Assembly: GCF_017464355.1 (NCBI RefSeq)
Contig: NZ_JAFUAG010000027.1
Location: forward strand, 152,076-216,075
DNA from: Ruminococcus sp.
Lineage (GTDB): Bacteria > Bacillota > Clostridia > Oscillospirales > Ruminococcaceae
Direction of reading: 5' to 3'
DNA: 64,000 nt
The translations under genes and the position numbers were made by a program. The notes beneath the pieces were generated by a model. That model did not search any database and had not been told where the DNA came from. It was given only the letters and a program-made list of their open reading frames with translations. Below are positions 47,073 through 56,139 of the stretch, in pieces (positions within the stretch are counted from its first letter, which is position 1; the number at the start of each line of letters is the position of its first letter).

Positions 47073-47101
47073 TTGACAATCAGGGTCGGTTATGATATAA
47101 T
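47073..47101 (+). promoter_or_regulatory. Host tRNA-Leu promoter
   Basis: Full consensus TTGACA (47073-47078), 17 bp, TATAAT (47096-47101), 9 bp before the tRNA-Leu 5' half. It may now drive the intron-bearing tRNA at 47414 by read-through. Confidence 0.88.
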
Positions 47102-47110
47102 AATATGGTA

Positions 47111-47153
47111 GGCCGCTGTGGTGGAATTGGCAGACACAAGGGACTTAAAATCC
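47111..47153 (+). pseudogene. tRNA-Leu(UAA) 5' half, cut by the element (left junction)
   Basis: The sequence matches tRNA-Leu from the acceptor (GCCGCTG) through the D arm to ACTTAAAATCC in the anticodon arm, then breaks off into unrelated sequence. No intron is present. The matching 3' half (same core word, ACTTAAAATCCC) is at 55524-55577 on the other strand. The last shared bases are the likely crossover core. Confidence 0.85.
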
Positions 47154-47246
47154 TCAGAGGATTTTGTAACAGATAAATTTTTCTGTCAACTCCCTCAGCG
47201 ATGATTATCACGTATCTACGGCTTTTAACTTAGATTTAGTAAACTG

Positions 47247-47361
47247 TTTGGTAGAAAAGTCTCTTGCGTATTGACACTGTTCTACCAAGTTGTCTACCAA
47301 AATCGACTTATTTACCTTCAAACTGATCTCAACCCGGTTTTGAAAATGGTGTTCTACCAAG
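47247..47361. repeat. Integrase arm-type sites, left end
   Basis: TTTGGTAGAAAAG (47247-47259), TTCTACCAAG (47280-47289), TCTACCAAAA (47293-47302) and TTCTACCAAG (47352-47361). The same word, in either strand sense, recurs at the right end (55729-55820) and upstream of the integrase gene (49155-49197). Confidence 0.65.
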
Positions 47362-47413
47362 GGACTTTTGAGATTATCGCACAAGGTAAATTCACAAAAA
47401 TTTAATAGAATAT

Positions 47414-47737
47414 GCCGCTGTGGTGGAATAGGCAGACACAAGGGACTTTGATGTTTGTACTCATAGAAATATGAGTCTGCGGGTTATCCGCAGAGAGTGC
47501 CTATGGAGAAATCCATAGAGTAGAAGTCGGCTAAAACGGTGAAGGCACAAACAGAACGCCGTGCTAACCCTTTCGGGTGAGTGTAGAGACTTTACACCGA
47601 CTACCTAAGTCCGTAAGGATATGGTAAAGACCAAGTCCAGACTACAACATACATTTGTGTGGCTATGGTAACATAGAGTAGTACGAAAATCCCTCGGAGT
47701 AAAATCCGTACCGGTTCAAGTCCGGTCAGCGGCACCA
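47414..47737 (+). tRNA. tRNA-Leu (anticodon UAA) interrupted by a group I intron
   Basis: Exon 1 is 47414-47448 (acceptor, D arm, to CTT at positions 32-34) and exon 2 is 47686-47737 (AAAATCCCT, variable arm CGGA/TCCG, T arm, acceptor, encoded CCA). Joined they give an 87-nt class II tRNA-Leu with GCCGCTG/CAGCGGC acceptor and anticodon UAA. The intron splits U34 from A35. The D-loop differs from the host 5' half by one base (AATAGG against AATTGG). No good promoter lies directly in front, so transcription may come from the host promoter at 47073. Confidence 0.88.
47449..47685 (+). ncRNA. Group I self-splicing intron in tRNA-Leu(UAA)
   Basis: 237 nt, ending in G before exon 2 as group I introns do. 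Core elements: GTGTAGAGACTTTACACCG with GACTACCTAAG (R/P7 region) and GACCAAGTCC (S/P7 partner; GACTT pairs with AAGTC), plus stem pairs such as GGCAC/GTGCT and ACCC/GGGT. Size, site (U34-A35) and core resemble the cyanobacterial tRNA-Leu introns. No open frame for a homing endonuclease. P1 pairing was not resolved. Confidence 0.82.
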
Positions 47738-47740
47738 TTA

Positions 47741-47774
47741 AAGCAAGTTCTCATTTGAGAGCTTGCTTTTTTTC
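47741..47774 (+). terminator. Terminator of the intron-bearing tRNA-Leu
   Basis: A 12-bp stem AAGCAAGTTCTC / GAGAGCTTGCTT (47741-47768, one G-T pair) followed by a long T run. Confidence 0.9.
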
Positions 47775-47784
47775 ATGCCCTCGT

Positions 47785-49065
47785 TTATTTCCTCCTCTTC
47801 TTTTCCCTGTCTTCTGCTTCTTCCGTGTTCTCTCCGCCAAGCACTTTTGCTATGGTCTCAGCGGATTCAATCTTCGACTTGTATTCGAGATGACTGTAGA
47901 AATTTGCTGTAACATTGAATGTCGAATGCCCCAGCCATTCCTGAATAGCCTTCATCGAAACACCGTTGGCAAGCAAAAGGCTCGCACAGCTATGTCTCAG
48001 ATCGTGAAAACGGATCTTCTTCAGATCGTTTCTCTTCATCACATAATGAAAATGACTGGTCACGAAATTCGGACTTATGAGCTTCCCTGTATTATCTCTG
48101 CATACGAAGCCGTCAAACTCCCTGTCGAAGTCAGGCCCCAGAAGCTTTGAATAGTAATCTTCAAGATACTTTCTCTCCTTCAGCATCTTTTCTATATGCG
48201 GGATCAGAGGAAAAGTCCTGACACTCGCCCTGGTCTTGAGCTGATTTTCCACGATTATCTCTTCCTTGCCGTTTCCGTATGAATTTGAGATCTTACGTCT
48301 TACGGTTATGGTTTTCGCATCGAAGTCGATTGAATCCCACTTCAGACCAAGGATCTCACTCTTACGAAGCCCGTAATAAGCTGCTATGTGAACAACAAGC
48401 TCCAGCCTGTCGCCCTTGAACAGCTCAAAAAGCTTGTCAAGCTCCTCCTTGGAGTAGAAATTCGCTTCAAACTTCTCCATCTTCGGAAGATCGACCTTAT
48501 CTGCTACATTGACATTGAGAAAATCGACCTTGACCGCATATCTGAGAGCCTTATGGATATTAGCGTGATAATGCTTTACCGTACTCGCAGAAGCTCCGCT
48601 GTTGTACTTTTCATTATAGTACTGCTGCAGGTGCAACGGAGTCAGTTCACTAAGCAGAAGTCCCGGATAGTACTTGTCGAAGTACTCCGTTATTCTTGTC
48701 ACCACGCCTCTGTAACCGATAAAGGTGTTGTTAGAGATAGAAGGTTTTACGATATCGAGCCATTTGAGAAGAAAAGCTCTGAACTCGATCTCATTTTCAC
48801 TGTTCGGGCTGCTTTCAGCTTTCACAGTTTTAGGCTTTTTAGCAGGATCAACCTTAGTAAGGCTGCCTGTCAGGTATTCTTCGTAGAACGCCGTAACGAT
48901 CTCCTTAGTCATTGCTGTCAGAGCCTTATTCGAGCAACCCACGCTGAGATTAGTGCAAACCCACTTTCTCTTTCTTTTTCCTTCGTCATCCCTGAAATCA
49001 AAGATAACATAATGCTTACCATTCTTTTCAGAAGTGATGTACTTAAAAGGCAGACTTGCTTTCAT
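47785..49065 (-). CDS. int: Tyrosine integrase of the element
   Basis: 426 residues, ATG 49065 after AAGGAGG. An N-terminal arm-binding-like domain (KNGKHYVIFDFRDDEGKRKRKW) and SAM-like core-binding domain precede the catalytic domain: GLRKSEILGLKW (Arg), HDLRHSCASLL (HxxR), WLGHST (His) and a Tyr in NFYSHL. All catalytic residues are present. It probably integrates the element at the tRNA-Leu anticodon arm. Its stop is about 48 bp from the intron-bearing tRNA, and arm-type repeats flank it. Confidence 0.95.
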   Translation of the reverse strand: MKASLPFKYITSEKNGKHYVIFDFRDDEGKRKRKWVCTNLSVGCSNKALTAMTKEIVTAFYEEYLTGSLTKVDPAKKPKTVKAESSPNSENEIEFRAFLLKWLDIVKPSISNNTFIGYRGVVTRITEYFDKYYPGLLLSELTPLHLQQYYNEKYNSGASASTVKHYHANIHKALRYAVKVDFLNVNVADKVDLPKMEKFEANFYSKEELDKLFELFKGDRLELVVHIAAYYGLRKSEILGLKWDSIDFDAKTITVRRKISNSYGNGKEEIIVENQLKTRASVRTFPLIPHIEKMLKERKYLEDYYSKLLGPDFDREFDGFVCRDNTGKLISPNFVTSHFHYVMKRNDLKKIRFHDLRHSCASLLLANGVSMKAIQEWLGHSTFNVTANFYSHLEYKSKIESAETIAKVLGGENTEEAEDREKKRRK

Positions 49066-49956: not shown

Positions 49957-50391
49957 TCACCCTGTTTTTTCGTGCCTGATTATGTAATTACGCAGATAAC
50001 GTGATCCTCTTCTCAGCGTTCTCGTAATCGACATGGCAGAAACACCGTATTCGCCGGCAAGCTGCATGAGTGTCATCTTTTCATTGTTCCTGCCAAAATA
50101 ATAGGCCCGTATCATCTCATACTCATAGCTGTAATGCGTTTTCAGCCATTCAAGAGCAGAAGGCAGAAGCTCTCTCCGCCTCTCCCACTCCATCTCTATT
50201 TCCAGTTCAAGCTTATACTCTTCGGTTGTTGTCGGATCGACGATCTCAGGAAGATTTCCGTAGCTATAGCTCAGAAGACCATTATCCTTGTCCCGTTCTT
50301 CGAGATAGTACTCACGTCTTCCCAGGCGGTTGTATTCCTTCTCCACATTATCCGGTACACCGTCGAAGTGCTGATAGATATATCCTCCCAT
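49957..50391 (-). CDS. Sigma-70 region 4-like regulator of the element
   Basis: 144 residues; GGAG 7 nt before the ATG. Highly charged. The C-terminal MTLMQLAGEYGVSAMSITRTLRRG is an HTH like sigma region 4. Similar short proteins occur in integrative elements of Clostridia, where they control transfer genes. Second gene of a pair, 4 nt after the next protein. Exact role is unknown. Confidence 0.65.
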   Translation of the reverse strand: MGGYIYQHFDGVPDNVEKEYNRLGRREYYLEERDKDNGLLSYSYGNLPEIVDPTTTEEYKLELEIEMEWERRRELLPSALEWLKTHYSYEYEMIRAYYFGRNNEKMTLMQLAGEYGVSAMSITRTLRRGSRYLRNYIIRHEKTG

Positions 50392-50395
50392 GGCA

Positions 50396-50863
50396 TTACT
50401 CCATCAGTCCCAGTGAGGTTAGCGGTCTGAAACCTCTGCTCTGAAGTTCTCTGTTGCAGGCACTGAGACTGTATTCGCTGCTGAACGCACAGCCATAAAG
50501 GTAATGCAGGATAATAATATCACGCTGGATATTGTAATTGAGACTTATATGCGTCAGAGAAAAAAGATATCTGCTTCTCATCGGGTGAAGTCTCAGCCCT
50601 ATACAGATAGCCGCAGTATGTTCCAGACTAATTTCACCGTCATAGCGCTGATACCTGTAGACCGAAGCGACGCTAATCCCTGTTATTTCGGACAGCTTGT
50701 ATGAATTCGTAGCTGTATCGCTCATATACCGAAGCAGTACTTCGCAGAAGCTTTCTCCGGTTTTATGAGTCACAAATCCTATATCCTTATATCTGCTGGT
50801 CTCACGCTGTGAAAGCGGGTGAACTAACGGTAACGGTTTGATGCCATACTTTTTCTTTCCCAT
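50396..50863 (-). CDS. HTH regulator, paralogue A
   Basis: 155 residues. Central HTH YKLSEITGISVASVYRYQRY, then LRLHPMRSRYLF and LYGCAFSS...RGFRPL. It is clearly related to the protein at 51315 (shared TGxSxASxYRY, GLRL, LxGCAF, RGF). Probably an element-borne transcription factor; the regulator downstream is co-transcribed. Confidence 0.6.
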   Translation of the reverse strand: MGKKKYGIKPLPLVHPLSQRETSRYKDIGFVTHKTGESFCEVLLRYMSDTATNSYKLSEITGISVASVYRYQRYDGEISLEHTAAICIGLRLHPMRSRYLFSLTHISLNYNIQRDIIILHYLYGCAFSSEYSLSACNRELQSRGFRPLTSLGLME

Positions 50864-51167
50864 AATGATCCTTTCCCAGACATCAGGGTGCAGAAAGTCA
50901 GAGTCTGACTATCGCACACTTATGCCCGACGATCAGACCCCGGCAGATATGATCGGTAATCTTCCACGGAAGCCGGAAACTCCTGCGCAGTGAGCTTTCC
51001 GTGGTGTTTATTTCTGAACTATCACCATTATACTTTATATGCACTGTGAAGTCCATTTCAGGCGGTGAGAATTTTTCTTTTTGCGGTAAATGCCGTTTAA
51101 TGCGCTGTATTACGTTATCTGAGAGACTTTATACTAAGTTCTGAACATAACTGCCAGGACGCAAAGA

Positions 51168-51203
51168 AGCCGAAACCTTTAGGAAATCCCAGAGGTTTCG
51201 GCT
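51168..51203. terminator. Hairpin between the two regulator genes
   Basis: An 11-bp stem AGCCGAAACCT (51168-51178) / AGGTTTCGGCT (51193-51203). The 50.9-51.3 kb gap otherwise holds no gene. Confidence 0.55.
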
Positions 51204-51263
51204 CTGTTTATTTTCTCATTGTATGAGAATGTTCATAAAATTTTTACAGTTATACAGATACAA

Positions 51264-51299
51264 AAACGGCACAGGAAATCACTCAGTACTTCCTGTGCC
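51264..51299 (-). terminator. Terminator of HTH regulator B
   Basis: A 10-bp perfect stem GGCACAGGAA (51268-51277) / TTCCTGTGCC (51290-51299), followed on the minus strand by TTTTTG. Confidence 0.82.
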
Positions 51300-51314
51300 G
51301 TCAGCCTATATCAA

Positions 51315-51773
51315 TCATATACTTTTCCCTTTCCCTAAAGTTTCAAAGCCCCGTTCGGCGAGTAACTCGTTCAGTGAATATACGGTCATATCTTCTCTGA
51401 AAGCGCAGCCGTGCAGAAAATATTCGCAGATCCTGTACTTTTCTGTCTGAGAATTCAGCTGTCTTCCTGCAAGATAAAACAGGTACATTGACCGCTGATA
51501 ATACAGCCGAAGGCCTACACAAAGTAAGATAAGCGTATCTGTATCCGGCAGCGTATCATCTTTCAGTGAAATATAACGATAGATAGAAGCTTTTGAAACT
51601 CCGGTAACCAATTCGATTTCTTCCTTGGTTGCACTACTCTCATCGACATATCTTGCAAAAGCCTGGTGAAAAGTTTCATCAACACTTTGTTTGACATATC
51701 CGCTCTGGAATATTCGTTCGTTGTCCCTGTCAGTGAGTAGTGTAATCGTTTTCTCGATAGTGTCCTTACTCAT
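51315..51773 (-). CDS. HTH regulator, paralogue B
   Basis: 152 residues when started at ATG 51773, which matches the length of its paralogue; a TTG at 51827 in frame is possible. HTH EIELVTGVSKASIYRYISL, followed by VGLRLYYQRSMYLFYL and FLHGCAFRED...RGFETL. Probably regulates element genes. The HTH resembles the lambda-repressor type. Confidence 0.6.
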   Translation of the reverse strand: MSKDTIEKTITLLTDRDNERIFQSGYVKQSVDETFHQAFARYVDESSATKEEIELVTGVSKASIYRYISLKDDTLPDTDTLILLCVGLRLYYQRSMYLFYLAGRQLNSQTEKYRICEYFLHGCAFREDMTVYSLNELLAERGFETLGKGKSI

Positions 51774-51827
51774 GATTTCTCTGGTCCAGTTGAATACCTC
51801 ATCGCCTGATACCGTGAGTTGAAACAA

Positions 51828-53040: not shown

Positions 53041-53979
53041 ATGAATAAACAAACTGTAATGAAGTTGATTAGCAAGGGCGAATCATCAACGGTAGAGTTC
53101 AAATCAGGAAAAAGCAAAGAATTCACCAATATATATCGTGTAATGTGTGCTTTTGCTAACTGTAAAGGCGGGTATCTGTTACTTGGTATATACGATAATG
53201 GCGAAATTATAGGTTGTGAAGCCAATTACATTAGTGCTATCAAATCAAGAATTCAAAGGGAAAATGGCAGTTCAAATGCCATCATCCCTAAAATCAGTTT
53301 TCAAATTGAGATAATAAGCATTGATTCGAAAAATGTCCTTTGCATTTCAGTAAATAAAAGTAATCAGATTCATACATATAAAGGAACTGCATTTTACCGT
53401 ATTAATGATATAATTGTTAGCCGTGAAGCAGCTAATGCCTATAAAAGAATCAATAGAAGTGGTGTCTACAATTTTTTAATGCATGATGACAGTTCTCAAA
53501 TTAGTAGCTATCAAGCAGCATTTAGAATCTTAGAACCATTTAAAGACTGGGTTGAAAATCACAAAGGATGGCAAACAATTCGCAATTTACCGGACTCTTC
53601 TAAAGAAAAAGATATACAGCGCCTAATTGATCTAAAGGGAAGAGATTATTGTGAAGATAATAATATTGATATGTCATTTGAAGCCAACGAAGGACCTGGA
53701 GCGTTGGATTTAAAGCTAAGTCGAGGAAATGACAAGACAGTAATAGAAATTAAACTTTCTACAAATAATCAATACTTGCATGGATTTGAAGTTCAAATTG
53801 AAGAATACGCAAGAGCTGAAAACACAAAGAATAGAATCTATGTATACATCCAACTTGGCAATCCAACAAGAACAAAAAGAATAAGAGAGTTGTATGAAAA
53901 AAAGAAAGAAGCAGGAGAGAATCCACCTTTTCTCTATATTATTGATTCACAGGTAAGACAATCTGCGAGTAAAAAATAA
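53041..53979 (+). CDS. AlbA_2 (Schlafen-type) protein with a PD-(D/E)XK-like C-terminal domain
   Basis: 312 residues, ATG after GAGAGG. The first 120 residues match the AlbA_2/Schlafen DNA-binding fold: ESSTVEFKSG, FANCKGGYLLLGIYDNGEIIG, and FYRINDIIVSRE. The C-terminal half has GPGALDLKL about 13 residues before VIEIKLS, the Asp...Glu-x-Lys layout of PD-(D/E)XK nucleases, followed by a HGFEVQIEEYARAE helix. It is markedly AT-rich, with its own strong terminator, in the cargo zone of the element. A defence or nucleic-acid-processing role is likely but inferred. Confidence 0.78.
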   Translation: MNKQTVMKLISKGESSTVEFKSGKSKEFTNIYRVMCAFANCKGGYLLLGIYDNGEIIGCEANYISAIKSRIQRENGSSNAIIPKISFQIEIISIDSKNVLCISVNKSNQIHTYKGTAFYRINDIIVSREAANAYKRINRSGVYNFLMHDDSSQISSYQAAFRILEPFKDWVENHKGWQTIRNLPDSSKEKDIQRLIDLKGRDYCEDNNIDMSFEANEGPGALDLKLSRGNDKTVIEIKLSTNNQYLHGFEVQIEEYARAENTKNRIYVYIQLGNPTRTKRIRELYEKKKEAGENPPFLYIIDSQVRQSASKK

Positions 53980-53994
53980 TCTATTTATAACTAA

Positions 53995-54028
53995 GAACAG
54001 GCAGAGTCAATTCCAACTCTGCCTGTTC
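53995..54028 (+). terminator. Terminator of the AlbA_2 gene
   Basis: A 13-bp perfect stem GAACAGGCAGAGT / ACTCTGCCTGTTC with an 8-nt loop. Confidence 0.85.
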
Positions 54029-54161
54029 TGTTTCATAGCTTGCTGTAAAGGTCTTGTTTATAGTAGCTGTGATAAAACTTCTATATGAGCGCAATCCTTT
54101 TCTTCTGCCCACGCTCTGTTTCTTTTATGTATCAAACTTTCCGCTGACTAAAAATTGCGCT

Positions 54162-55328
54162 TTACTTTGTCAGAGCATCCGCCAGTTCGGCCAGCTTGGC
54201 TTCGCTCTCGCTGTTGAGAGCAGACTTGATCGTCACCACAGGCTCGACCAGAGTGATATCCTTGAACTTCTCCACATAACCCTTGATAACGCGGCCTGCG
54301 CTGGGTGCCCAGGAACCGTTCTCAACTATGGCCACCTTGCGGTTGCGGTAGGTCTTGTCACGCAGGTGCATCAGCAGCTCCTCCATGGGAGGGAAAACTC
54401 CGCCGTCATAGCTTGAAGCCATAAGCACCAGCCTGTCATATCTGAACGCATCTTCCACTGCCTCGGCCTGGTCGTCACGGGTTATGTCAGAAAGGCTGAC
54501 CTTTTCAGCGCCCCTGGCTTCCAGCATTTCCTTGAGCTTTTCTGCGGCCGCAAGGGTGTTGCCGTGTATGGAAGCGCAGGCTATGAAAATGCCCTTGTTC
54601 TCGGGCTCGTAGCTTGACCAGGTGTTGTACAGGCCAAGATAATAGTCCAGATTTTCGGTCAGCATAGGTCCGTGCAGGGGAAGTATCATCCTGATATCAA
54701 GAGCAGCAGCCTTCTTCAGCACAGCCTGCACCTGAGCCCCGTACTTGCCTACGATGTTGAAGTAGTAGCGTCTTGCCTCGCAGGCCCAGTCCTCATCAGT
54801 ATCAAGGGTACCGAACTTGCCGAAAGCGTCCGCCGAGAAGAAAGCCTTTTCGCTTGCCTCATAGGTCATCATTACCTCGGGCCAGTGTACCATGGGTGTC
54901 ATGAAGAATTTCAGTGTATGCTCGCCCAGAGAAAGTTCCTCGCCCTCCTTGACAGCAACAGAACGCTCTGCCAGGTCGAGGATAGCAAAGAACTGGTTCA
55001 GCATAGTGAAGGTCTTGGCATTGCCCACCACCTTCATCTCAGGGAAAGCCTCCATAAGGCGGGCGATGTTTGCTGAGTGATCGGGCTCAACGTGCTGTAC
55101 CACCAGATAATCCACTGTTCTTCCGCCCAGGGCATTTTTCAGGTTCCCGAACCATACATCGCTCACCCGCTTGTCCGCCGTATCCATAACGCAGACCTTT
55201 TCGTCCATGATAACATAGGAATTATATGCCATGCCGTTGGGGACATCGTACTGGCTCTCGAACAGGTCAAGCTCCTTGTCGTCAGCGCCGATGTAGATTA
55301 TTTTATCGGAAAAATTCGTATTTGCCAA
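54162..55328 (-). CDS. fprA: FprA-type flavodiiron protein
   Basis: 388 residues; the start is TTG 55328, 8 nt after AGGAGG. The N-terminal metallo-beta-lactamase-like diiron domain has HVEPDHSAN (HxExDH), MVHWPEVM and SADAFGKFG ligands; the C-terminal flavodoxin domain includes ASIHGNTLAAAEKL and ASSYDGGVFP. It reduces oxygen or nitric oxide to protect an anaerobe. It appears to be a host gene that originally followed the tRNA-Leu and now lies between the two parts of the element. Confidence 0.95.
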   Translation of the reverse strand: MANTNFSDKIIYIGADDKELDLFESQYDVPNGMAYNSYVIMDEKVCVMDTADKRVSDVWFGNLKNALGGRTVDYLVVQHVEPDHSANIARLMEAFPEMKVVGNAKTFTMLNQFFAILDLAERSVAVKEGEELSLGEHTLKFFMTPMVHWPEVMMTYEASEKAFFSADAFGKFGTLDTDEDWACEARRYYFNIVGKYGAQVQAVLKKAAALDIRMILPLHGPMLTENLDYYLGLYNTWSSYEPENKGIFIACASIHGNTLAAAEKLKEMLEARGAEKVSLSDITRDDQAEAVEDAFRYDRLVLMASSYDGGVFPPMEELLMHLRDKTYRNRKVAIVENGSWAPSAGRVIKGYVEKFKDITLVEPVVTIKSALNSESEAKLAELADALTK

Positions 55329-55357
55329 TTTGATTACCTCCTAAAATAGTATAACTT

Positions 55358-55386
55358 ATTTTAACATAAATCGGAAGATATGTCAA
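55358..55386 (-). promoter_or_regulatory. Promoter of fprA
   Basis: TTGACA (55381-55386), 17 bp, TAAAAT (55358-55363) on the minus strand. Confidence 0.82.
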
Positions 55387-55479
55387 TACAGCATCAGTTC
55401 ACTTTCGGCTCACGGCAGACTTTTTTGCCATACGCCAGCCCGAAAATCAGCGCTGAAAAACATTCCGAAATAACAAGAC

Positions 55480-55517
55480 AAAAAAGACCGCACTTTCAAC
55501 GAAGTACGGTCTTTTTT
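55480..55517 (-). terminator. Terminator of the host tRNA-Leu
   Basis: GACCGCACTT (55486-55495) / AAGTACGGTC (55502-55511) with one mismatch and A/T runs on both sides, directly behind the tRNA-Leu 3' half. Confidence 0.88.
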
Positions 55518-55523
55518 CATAAG

Positions 55524-55577
55524 TGCCGCTGACCGGGCTTGAACCGGTACGAACTTTTGGTTCGAGGGATTTTAAGT
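55524..55577 (-). pseudogene. tRNA-Leu(UAA) 3' half (right junction, inverted)
   Basis: On the minus strand: ACTTAAAATCCC, variable arm CGAAC/GTTCG, T arm with GTTCAAG, acceptor CAGCGGC and A73, no CCA. It is complementary to the 5' half at 47111 (acceptor GCCGCTG) and shares the ACTTAAAATCC core. Upstream of it (to the right) the sequence is element DNA. Confidence 0.87.
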
Positions 55578-55589
55578 TTTGTAGTCAAC

Positions 55590-55626
55590 TCGGCAATTCA
55601 CGGCAAGTCACGGCAATTCGTGGTAG
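55590..55626. repeat. Short tandem CGGCAAxTC units at the right end
   Basis: Three consecutive copies of a CGGCAA(T/G)TC unit about 11 bp apart, 13 bp from the junction. Possible excisionase or accessory-factor sites. Confidence 0.5.
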
Positions 55627-55728
55627 TTTATGCCCTTAAAAATCACGCATTTACGGGCATTTTGGAGCTTCAATCACATTTTTCTTCGTGAAATCAAGGA
55701 AACCGAAAAAATCAAAAAAACGGTCGAT

Positions 55729-55820
55729 TTGGTAGAAAGGTGGTAGAAACTCATGCGTATAGACTTGTTTTAGGCTGAAAAGTTGGTAGAAAGTTGGTAG
55801 AAGCGAAAACTTGGTAGAAA
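55729..55820. repeat. Integrase arm-type sites, right end
   Basis: Five copies of GGTAGAA, mostly as TTGGTAGAAA, at 55729-55738, 55742-55748, 55783-55789, 55794-55802 and 55810-55820. Same word as at the left end. Confidence 0.65.
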
Positions 55821-56139
55821 TCAGTTGTTGCGTCCAAAATTCCATTATATTGTAGATTATAGCGTATGGAGCTTGGTAATTGATATTACGGAGCGCTATA
55901 CGCTATTTTTATGCCTGAAAACTGAATAATCCGATAACGCTCCTCAGTAATGAGGGGCGTTTTTTGTTGCCCAAAAACTAATATCCAAGCAGCACAACAA
56001 CTTTATTATTCACTCTTACCAACATATCATCACTACTGCGTTATGTTAGTGATAACGATATTCAGTTTCTAATATTATACCATGTTTGTGCTTTGAAGTC
56101 AATAGATTACCATAAATTACCATATAAAGGAGGATCTCT

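Follow-up and report, generated by a model that had tools for sequence, protein, structure and literature searches.

We analysed a 64,000-nucleotide stretch of DNA from Ruminococcus sp. (hereafter the window; contig NZ_JAFUAG010000027.1, positions 152,076 to 216,075 of the forward strand) and concentrated on a tRNA-Leu(UAA) gene at window positions 47414-47737. This gene lies on an integrative element, next to its integrase, and is interrupted in the anticodon loop by a short group I intron. It is made of three parts:

47414..47448, plus strand: 5' exon of the element-borne tRNA-Leu(UAA) (match breaks; ARAGORN on the joined exons)
47449..47685, plus strand: group I intron of 237 nt, between U34 and A35 (structure and covariation; last G at 47685)
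47686..47737, plus strand: 3' exon of the element-borne tRNA-Leu(UAA), CCA encoded (match breaks; ARAGORN on the joined exons)

A replacement tRNA gene beside a split host gene

When 47414-47737 was compared with 100 genomes (its own and 99 relatives), matches to intronless relatives stopped exactly at query positions 35 and 273. Many matches break at these two points because the tRNA-Leu(UAA) gene of those genomes is intronless, and the breaks therefore give an intron length of 237 nt, with exactly the coordinates that an earlier model reading of the letters (the first-pass annotation) had proposed. The interrupted gene was matched over its length in 4 of the 100 genomes (G000, that of the window, G014, G023 and G024). 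ARAGORN read the joined exons of five copies, including the window's, as tRNA-Leu (taa), and the exon junction CUU|AAAA sets the insertion between U34 and A35; identity and insertion site are thus as the first-pass annotation had claimed. We take this position to be the insertion site of the cyanobacterial tRNA-Leu introns as well. The predicted folding energy of the 324-nt gene is -115 kcal/mol (z -5.46; 0/100 shuffles as low). Plain ARAGORN did not report the interrupted tRNA-Leu gene at 47414-47737, and its intron mode gave a tRNA-Phe (gaa) with a 237-nt intron at this locus. The latter reading was rejected: it is a one-base shift with which the intron would end in C, and the split host halves read CTTAAAA. 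At the level of sequence, we consider it confirmed that a 237-nt group I intron interrupts the tRNA-Leu(UAA) gene at window positions 47414-47737.

The surroundings of this gene are those of an integrated element:

47073..47101, plus strand: promoter-like site of the broken host tRNA-Leu gene (TTGACA, 17 nt, TATAAT; 12/12 in a consensus scan)
47112..47146, plus strand: 5' half of the intronless host tRNA-Leu(UAA), severed by integration (rejoined with 55573-55520 of the minus strand, it reads as tRNA-Leu (taa))
47143..47153, plus strand: attachment core ACTTAAAATCC of the left junction (longest stretch common to both junctions)
47154..47413, plus strand: attachment arm with CTACCA/TGGTAG repeats at 47249, 47282, 47294 and 47354 (arms recur at the same place in relatives)
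47740..47769, plus strand: terminator-like hairpin and T run 3' of the tRNA (sequence scan)
47785..49065, minus strand: tyrosine integrase of 426 aa (Pfam Phage_integrase, 81.7 bits, cut-off 27.1)
49957..51827, minus strand: three small open reading frames of the element (49957-50391, 50396-50863, 51315-51827), without Pfam match
55523..55577, minus strand: right junction, with the core and the remaining (3') half of the host tRNA-Leu(UAA); the 5' half is on the other strand (sequence matches)
55620..55850, minus strand: right-junction attachment arm with six CTACCA repeats (similar arm in G023, locus L030)

From left to right, the host 5' half is thus followed by the core, the CTACCA arm, the intron-bearing gene, which begins 302 nt past the start of the host half, and the integrase. 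The core common to both junctions is 11 bp long in G000; in G023, where the two matching junctions are found on two contigs, it is 12 bp. In both genomes, ARAGORN reads the rejoined junction ends as tRNA-Leu (taa), and in both the broken host gene is intronless. Since an 11-bp core is unable to rebuild the tRNA, the intron-bearing copy is a full replacement. The split halves, the core and the Pfam match sustain the mobile element and neighbouring integrase of the first-pass annotation; judged by its junctions, a tyrosine integrase placed the element in the host's own tRNA-Leu(UAA), an intronless gene, at the anticodon loop.

As to the remaining content of the element, two of its three small reading frames are 97-98% alike, and one 59% alike, to those beside the related integrase of L035. 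No relaxase or coupling-protein gene was found by Pfam among the ten window proteins scanned; the element of G023 has a relaxase and, at its right end, a type IV secretion system coupling-protein domain, and the element of G875 a relaxase. Elsewhere in the window's genome, contig G000:C43 (L004 1-1140) holds a CRISPR-like direct-repeat array, followed by a tRNA T-arm fragment at 1501-1527.

Group I fold and relatives of the intron

The structure was named by hand and comprises the eight helices below (all on the plus strand), two extra hairpins in loop L1 of the type A introns, as we call the window's intron and its close copies, and one long-range helix:

47445-47448/47495-47498: P1
47502-47507/47512-47517: P2
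47520-47530/47597-47604: P3
47536-47541/47557-47562: P4
47563-47570/47575-47582: P6
47588-47592/47633-47637: P7
47610-47612/47617-47619: P8
47641-47645/47678-47682: P9
47452..47458: L1 segment UGUUUGU, which is predicted to form the long-range helix with ACAAACA (47547-47553), the usual place of P5 (12 sequences)

In P1, exon ACUU pairs with intron GAGU and leaves a U.G at the 5' splice site, found in 12/12 sequences; this GAGU, which precedes P2, is invariant across the twelve. An internal guide sequence at the GAGUC of the first hairpin was rejected, as G014 and G023 are unable to form it. All 13 type A introns examined end in G. The hand structure leaves 97.8% of cells paired on 5 sequences and 98.9% on 12, where 18 of the 73 pairs are changed on both sides. 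In both sets, four of five covariation measures exceed all 500 shuffles; the fifth, a count of further pair types, does not (433/500 and 362/500 shuffles reach it), and in the 12-sequence set no compensatory change is seen in P1, P7, P8 or the main P9 stem. The seven pairs of the long-range helix are kept in 12/12 type A sequences, one of them being changed on both sides in 2/12, so that this helix is offered as a thinly supported prediction. In type B introns, a second set of relatives (e.g., L135), a local P5 hairpin seems to be present by eye. The intron may resemble those of Azoarcus and Anabaena.

The first-pass annotation had proposed a search with the Rfam group I intron model, RF00028, and this search left the window copy unmatched; over the whole genome of the window it reported three weak places, all elsewhere. 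Since RF00028 is blind to this copy, a model, R1, was built from the copies themselves (five of them, with the P1 and P7 pairs omitted). R1 scores the type B relative L135 at 107 bits. Among 18 relatives linked by R1, RF00028 itself puts four above its cut-off (L135, L136, L137 and L139) and two below it (L138, 42 bits; L129, 26 bits). R1 thus links the window's family to relatives that pass RF00028, and by this route the family is tied to group I introns.

An alignment of 27 sequences extends the covariation. It was fitted to the R1 structure and so favours R1's pairs, P7 excepted, which was added afterwards; with this proviso, 36 of its 50 core pairs are changed on both sides, 96.9% of cells are paired, covariation scores 0.573, compared with 0.165 for the shuffles, and none of the 500 shuffles reaches the real value in any of the five measures. 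Of the 135 P7 cells, 134 are paired (99.3%), with one pair changed on both sides; for the outer part of P3 the figure is only 77.8%. The terminal G and the paired P7 core read by the first-pass annotation therefore both stand.

The intron occurs in 4 of the 29 genomes of the genus. R1 matched 1/394 genomes in an order sample (its own genome), 11/391 in a class sample and 20/396 in a family sample, three samples that overlap and whose stricter filters lose weak matches. Six weak R1 matches (G548, G556 and G600 in the class sample; G872, G1136 and G1145 in the family sample) were dropped, no tRNA being interrupted there, and G1036 (L140, 51.6 bits) was kept out of the alignment as it resembles a longer tRNA-Leu intron. 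With introns allowed, ARAGORN assigns nine loci from seven genomes at class level to tRNA-Tyr (5), tRNA-Thr (2) and tRNA-Asp (2); these related introns (L113-L119, L123, L124) sit, in its reading, in anticodon loops in other clostridial families. No integrase relative was found there within the 1.8-3.2 kb read. RF00028, applied by itself to an order-level set, matched 5 of 295 genomes, one over cut-off, and the window's genome was absent from the five. Outside bacterial chromosomes, the Lak-C1 phage L064 (MK250029.1, 1000-1610) shows a tRNA-Leu 3' exon after a similar intron end, at the same site (R1 27 bits, E 3.7e-05). The plasmid collection gave no match to the intron, and exact-pattern scans of viral_contigs for intron words found none. 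As read by R1 and ARAGORN, related introns occur in Clostridia in tRNA-Leu and in tRNA-Tyr, tRNA-Thr and tRNA-Asp, and the intron is not a one-off: it was found again within the genus, and relatives of it occur in other Clostridia.

Three further observations concern this family. L120 and L122, weak R1 matches outside tRNA genes, resemble group I introns of a different kind on visual inspection. L134 (1285-1702) is a type A intron grown to 403 nt through an insertion in the L1 region. Just upstream of the intron-bearing tRNA-Leu of L064, a second group I-like core can be seen by eye.

Element-borne and chromosomal copies

Fourteen type A copies were compared: the window, L027, L028, L029, L035 (the same contig as G1051:C256, judging by length and position, and counted once), L126, L128, L129, L130, L131, L132, L133, L134 and L144. 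Seven are on elements, with a split host half visible in the window, L027, L126, L130 and L144, and with a contig that starts inside the arm in L035 and L128. An integrase relative accompanies six of these seven; the contig of L144 ends first. The other seven are in chromosomal tRNA-Leu genes, where no arm could be seen by eye and tblastn (E up to 1e-3) found no integrase relative within the 1.9 to 20 kb read. The clearest case is G024, whose intron-bearing gene is unsplit although it lies beside the same aldo/keto reductase gene as the copies of the window and G023. The first-pass annotation was thus right to put the window's gene on an element beside an integrase, and the intron is not confined to such elements. 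G875 has two intron-bearing replacement tRNA copies on two contigs (L144, L145), the integration site of the second element not being visible.

Between the window and G023, identity is 53% for the integrases and 89% for the introns. Like introns beside unlike integrases, together with element-free copies, argue that the tRNA-intron cassette seems to move apart from the integrase. On a tree of 13 type A introns (all but L134) and two type B introns, in which one inner branch alone is well supported, the setting changes 3 times, whereas shuffles need 5.3 changes (12 and 19 of 500 needing as few); element and chromosome settings are thus partly clustered.

Relatives of the integrase were found at 27 loci in genome_contigs, at 2 in viral_contigs and, at E up to 1e-60, in 10 of the 29 genus genomes. 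ARAGORN reported no tRNA in 18 of 44 integrase loci, three of which are intron-bearing and missed by it for that reason; of seven longer stretches, five were without tRNA, L098 had a tRNA-Leu(CAA) and L099 unrelated tRNAs only. Where a tRNA accompanies an integrase relative, it is tRNA-Leu(UAA), tRNA-Leu(CAA), tRNA-Ser(CGA) or tRNA-Ala. By eye, the relatives at L042, L043, L044, L055, L060, L074 and L078, and likewise at L081, L083, L085, L047 and L057, break a tRNA-Leu(CAA), tRNA-Ser(CGA) or tRNA-Ala and bring a complete intronless replacement. We rejected loss of the core as a general requirement for replacement tRNAs, since L031 and L040 retain it.

Some arrangements stand on their own. Ahead of the replacement tRNA-Leu(CAA) of L074, positions 900-1300 show two arm-like stretches around a partial anticodon arm (GATTCAAAATCCGC), perhaps the trace of a tandem insertion. 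In L033 (11340-11720), an intact tRNA-Leu(UAA) is followed by an arm and by a second tRNA-Leu-like 5' half with an altered anticodon stem. In G993 (L170 4698-11407), a tRNA-Leu(UAA) 5' half precedes another kind of tyrosine recombinase (its NCBIfam matches stay below cut-off), a serine recombinase and, 6.4 kb on, a tRNA-Leu with a type B intron. An unrelated second element may use the same strategy here; its 3' half was not found in the 20 kb read, and the intron gene is no more than a candidate component of that element.

Proposed mechanism, rival explanations and known systems

We propose that the window carries the replacement tRNA-Leu(UAA) of a tRNA-breaking integrative element, interrupted by a group I intron that moves with the tRNA cassette, and we give this account as a whole a probability of about 0.87. 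The element combines a tyrosine integrase, an attachment site (attP) with an anticodon-arm core of about 11 bp, and a complete tRNA-Leu(UAA) gene between the two. Its integration splits the host's apparently only tRNA-Leu(UAA) in the anticodon loop without rebuilding it, so that the element's copy would become the cell's source of this tRNA. Once the gene is expressed, as we infer it to be, a guanosine would attack at the U.G pair of P1 and start self-splicing, using the guanosine site of P7 and the last G, and the exons would then be ligated. At 237 nt the intron is too short for a homing endonuclease gene, and it appears to spread with the tRNA cassette, probably by recombination between element and chromosomal tRNA-Leu genes rather than by homing.

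The dependence of the host on the carried gene was approached with an anticodon-arm pattern searched in the 13 type A genomes (2 mismatches allowed in four, 1 in nine). No intact tRNA-Leu(UAA) was found besides the intron-bearing gene in 12 of the 13, mostly drafts in which a divergent copy could be missed. The tRNA genes at pattern matches read CAA, bar one tRNA-Leu (taa) in G1051, and the remaining zero-mismatch matches are the split halves. As no intact copy was found in these 12 genomes, the intron should be spliced there. This is consistent with the host depending on the carried tRNA, which would make the gene essential.

Several observations weigh against this account. RF00028 finds no match at the window copy, neither at its gathering cut-off nor at E up to 10, and 12 of the 18 R1-linked relatives are without match at E up to 0.1. 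The intron tree is compatible with a single origin of the element-borne introns. G1051, one of the 13 genomes, also has an intact intronless tRNA-Leu(UAA); the genome of the window is 91% complete (a 49-contig draft), so that a further copy could be missing; and UUA codons are rare (12 of 5,075 codons in 13 open reading frames of the window). Two related elements, L031 and L040, have an intronless replacement tRNA with the core intact, and the intron is therefore not needed for such an element to persist. Finally, the two junctions have opposite orientations: with the halves on different strands, an inversion or a misassembly lies between them. Within 53979-55577, a gene at 54162-55328 (ODP beta-lactamase and flavodoxin-like domains) and the 3' half are on the strand opposite to the left junction, which puts the inversion or misassembly near 54.0 kb.

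As to what the intron does for the element, we lean slightly towards nothing at all: it would have entered the tRNA-Leu(UAA) of this bacterial family earlier and been captured by the elements with the host tRNA, as a passenger without any role in integration. Half of the close copies are in chromosomal tRNA-Leu genes with no integrase relative in the stretches read, the distant relatives in tRNA-Tyr, tRNA-Thr and tRNA-Asp are likewise without one in the 1.8-3.2 kb read, and related elements manage with intronless replacement tRNAs. What this leaves to be accounted for is the presence of the intron in 7 of 9 replacement tRNA-Leu(UAA) genes of the integrase family against an interrupted gene in 4 of the 100 genomes of the first sample, an excess which is biased, since the nine genes were partly found via the intron.

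A second explanation, which is possible although we would not wager on it, is that the intron protects the gene it sits in, be it the replacement tRNA or a host tRNA that has acquired it, against the integrase family, because it leaves the 11-bp core in pieces of 4 and 7 bp. The intron does lie inside the core common to both junctions, and the broken host gene is intronless at both loci where the two junctions are visible. With the core parted, the replacement gene should be a poor integrase target, which is perhaps useful to the element. A precedent may be found in Rhizobium phages around vTRX32-1, which, according to PMC8631192, integrate in tRNA-Leu and carry their own tRNA-Leu without the 12-bp attachment motif, a feature suggested there to block super-integration; in that family the motif is absent, whereas in the window it is interrupted by the intron. 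On the other side, the replacement tRNAs of L031 and L040 retain the core, and the seven unsplit chromosomal genes bring no independent support, since they were classed as chromosomal partly by being unsplit. In its full form, this conjecture makes the self-splicing intron an att-site shield, by which an element would carry a fully functional copy of its target tRNA beside attP without self-attack, deletion or tandem insertion by relatives; we hold this to be somewhat unlikely.

Two explanations hardly survive. That the intron is degenerate and the gene dead, UUA being decoded by another tRNA, would suit the failure of RF00028 and the rarity of UUA codons and is very improbable, given core pairs conserved with compensatory changes and the 12 of 13 genomes in which no intact tRNA-Leu(UAA) was found. 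That faulty assembly produced the split halves and the replacement gene, as the opposite strand of the 3' half and the 49-contig draft might suggest, is just as improbable, for the order 5' half, arm, intron-bearing tRNA recurs in G023, G1025, G981 and G875 (with an adjoining integrase relative in the first three), and G023 has a matching right junction, on another contig.

The preferred account, a replacement tRNA interrupted by a group I intron, recalls several known systems. The tRNA-Leu(UAA) introns of cyanobacteria and plastids belong to subgroup IC3. They share with the window's intron the gene, the anticodon loop, a small size, the U.G of P1 and the last G; the latter differs in being clostridial, in having half of its close copies on elements, in going unscored by RF00028, in a P5 strand apparently paired with L1 and in two extra hairpins. 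In a 2014 review (PMC4033280), most bacterial and plastid tRNA introns are placed at 37/38, and the bacterial group I tRNA introns listed are from cyanobacteria and from alpha- and beta-proteobacteria. Tyrosine integrase, short core, a host tRNA broken and not rebuilt, and a carried cognate tRNA are features shared with the tRNA-dependent lysogeny of actinophages (Guerrero-Bustamante and Hatfull 2024, PMC10865867; common core of 8-17 bp in its Table 2). The elements described here differ in being clostridial, with a relaxase in two relatives and a coupling-protein domain in one, and in carrying a tRNA that holds a group I intron; in the text of PMC10865867, the word "intron" occurs once, within a reference title. 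For archaea, Randau and Soll 2008 and Sugahara 2012, as relayed in PMC4033280 and PMC8371274, proposed that integration is hampered where a tRNA gene is split or contains an intron, or that such genes acquire introns from att sites. Interrupted tRNA genes are poor or altered integration targets in that proposal too; the archaeal introns are, however, protein-spliced, with no group I intron. A literature search, with most subscription journals beyond its reach, found, in the titles and abstract openings that it covered, no work on group I introns in clostridial tRNA genes or in the replacement tRNAs of elements. IStrons, known from Clostridium difficile, unite an intron and an insertion sequence in one chimeric element. 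The intron of the window is, by contrast, cargo inside the element's tRNA; IStrons are the subject of PMC4227781.

Self-splicing tRNA introns and elements that replace the host tRNA they break were each known separately; the locus combines them and brings group I tRNA introns to Clostridia, in four kinds of tRNA by ARAGORN's reading. As the Rfam model leaves many of these introns unscored, genomes that have them would seem to lack an essential tRNA. The element is a plausible vehicle for the horizontal transfer of a very small intron, and the old idea of integration-resistant interrupted tRNA genes becomes testable in bacteria. If the intron does shield its gene, its move into a chromosomal tRNA-Leu would make the host resistant to the whole family of elements.
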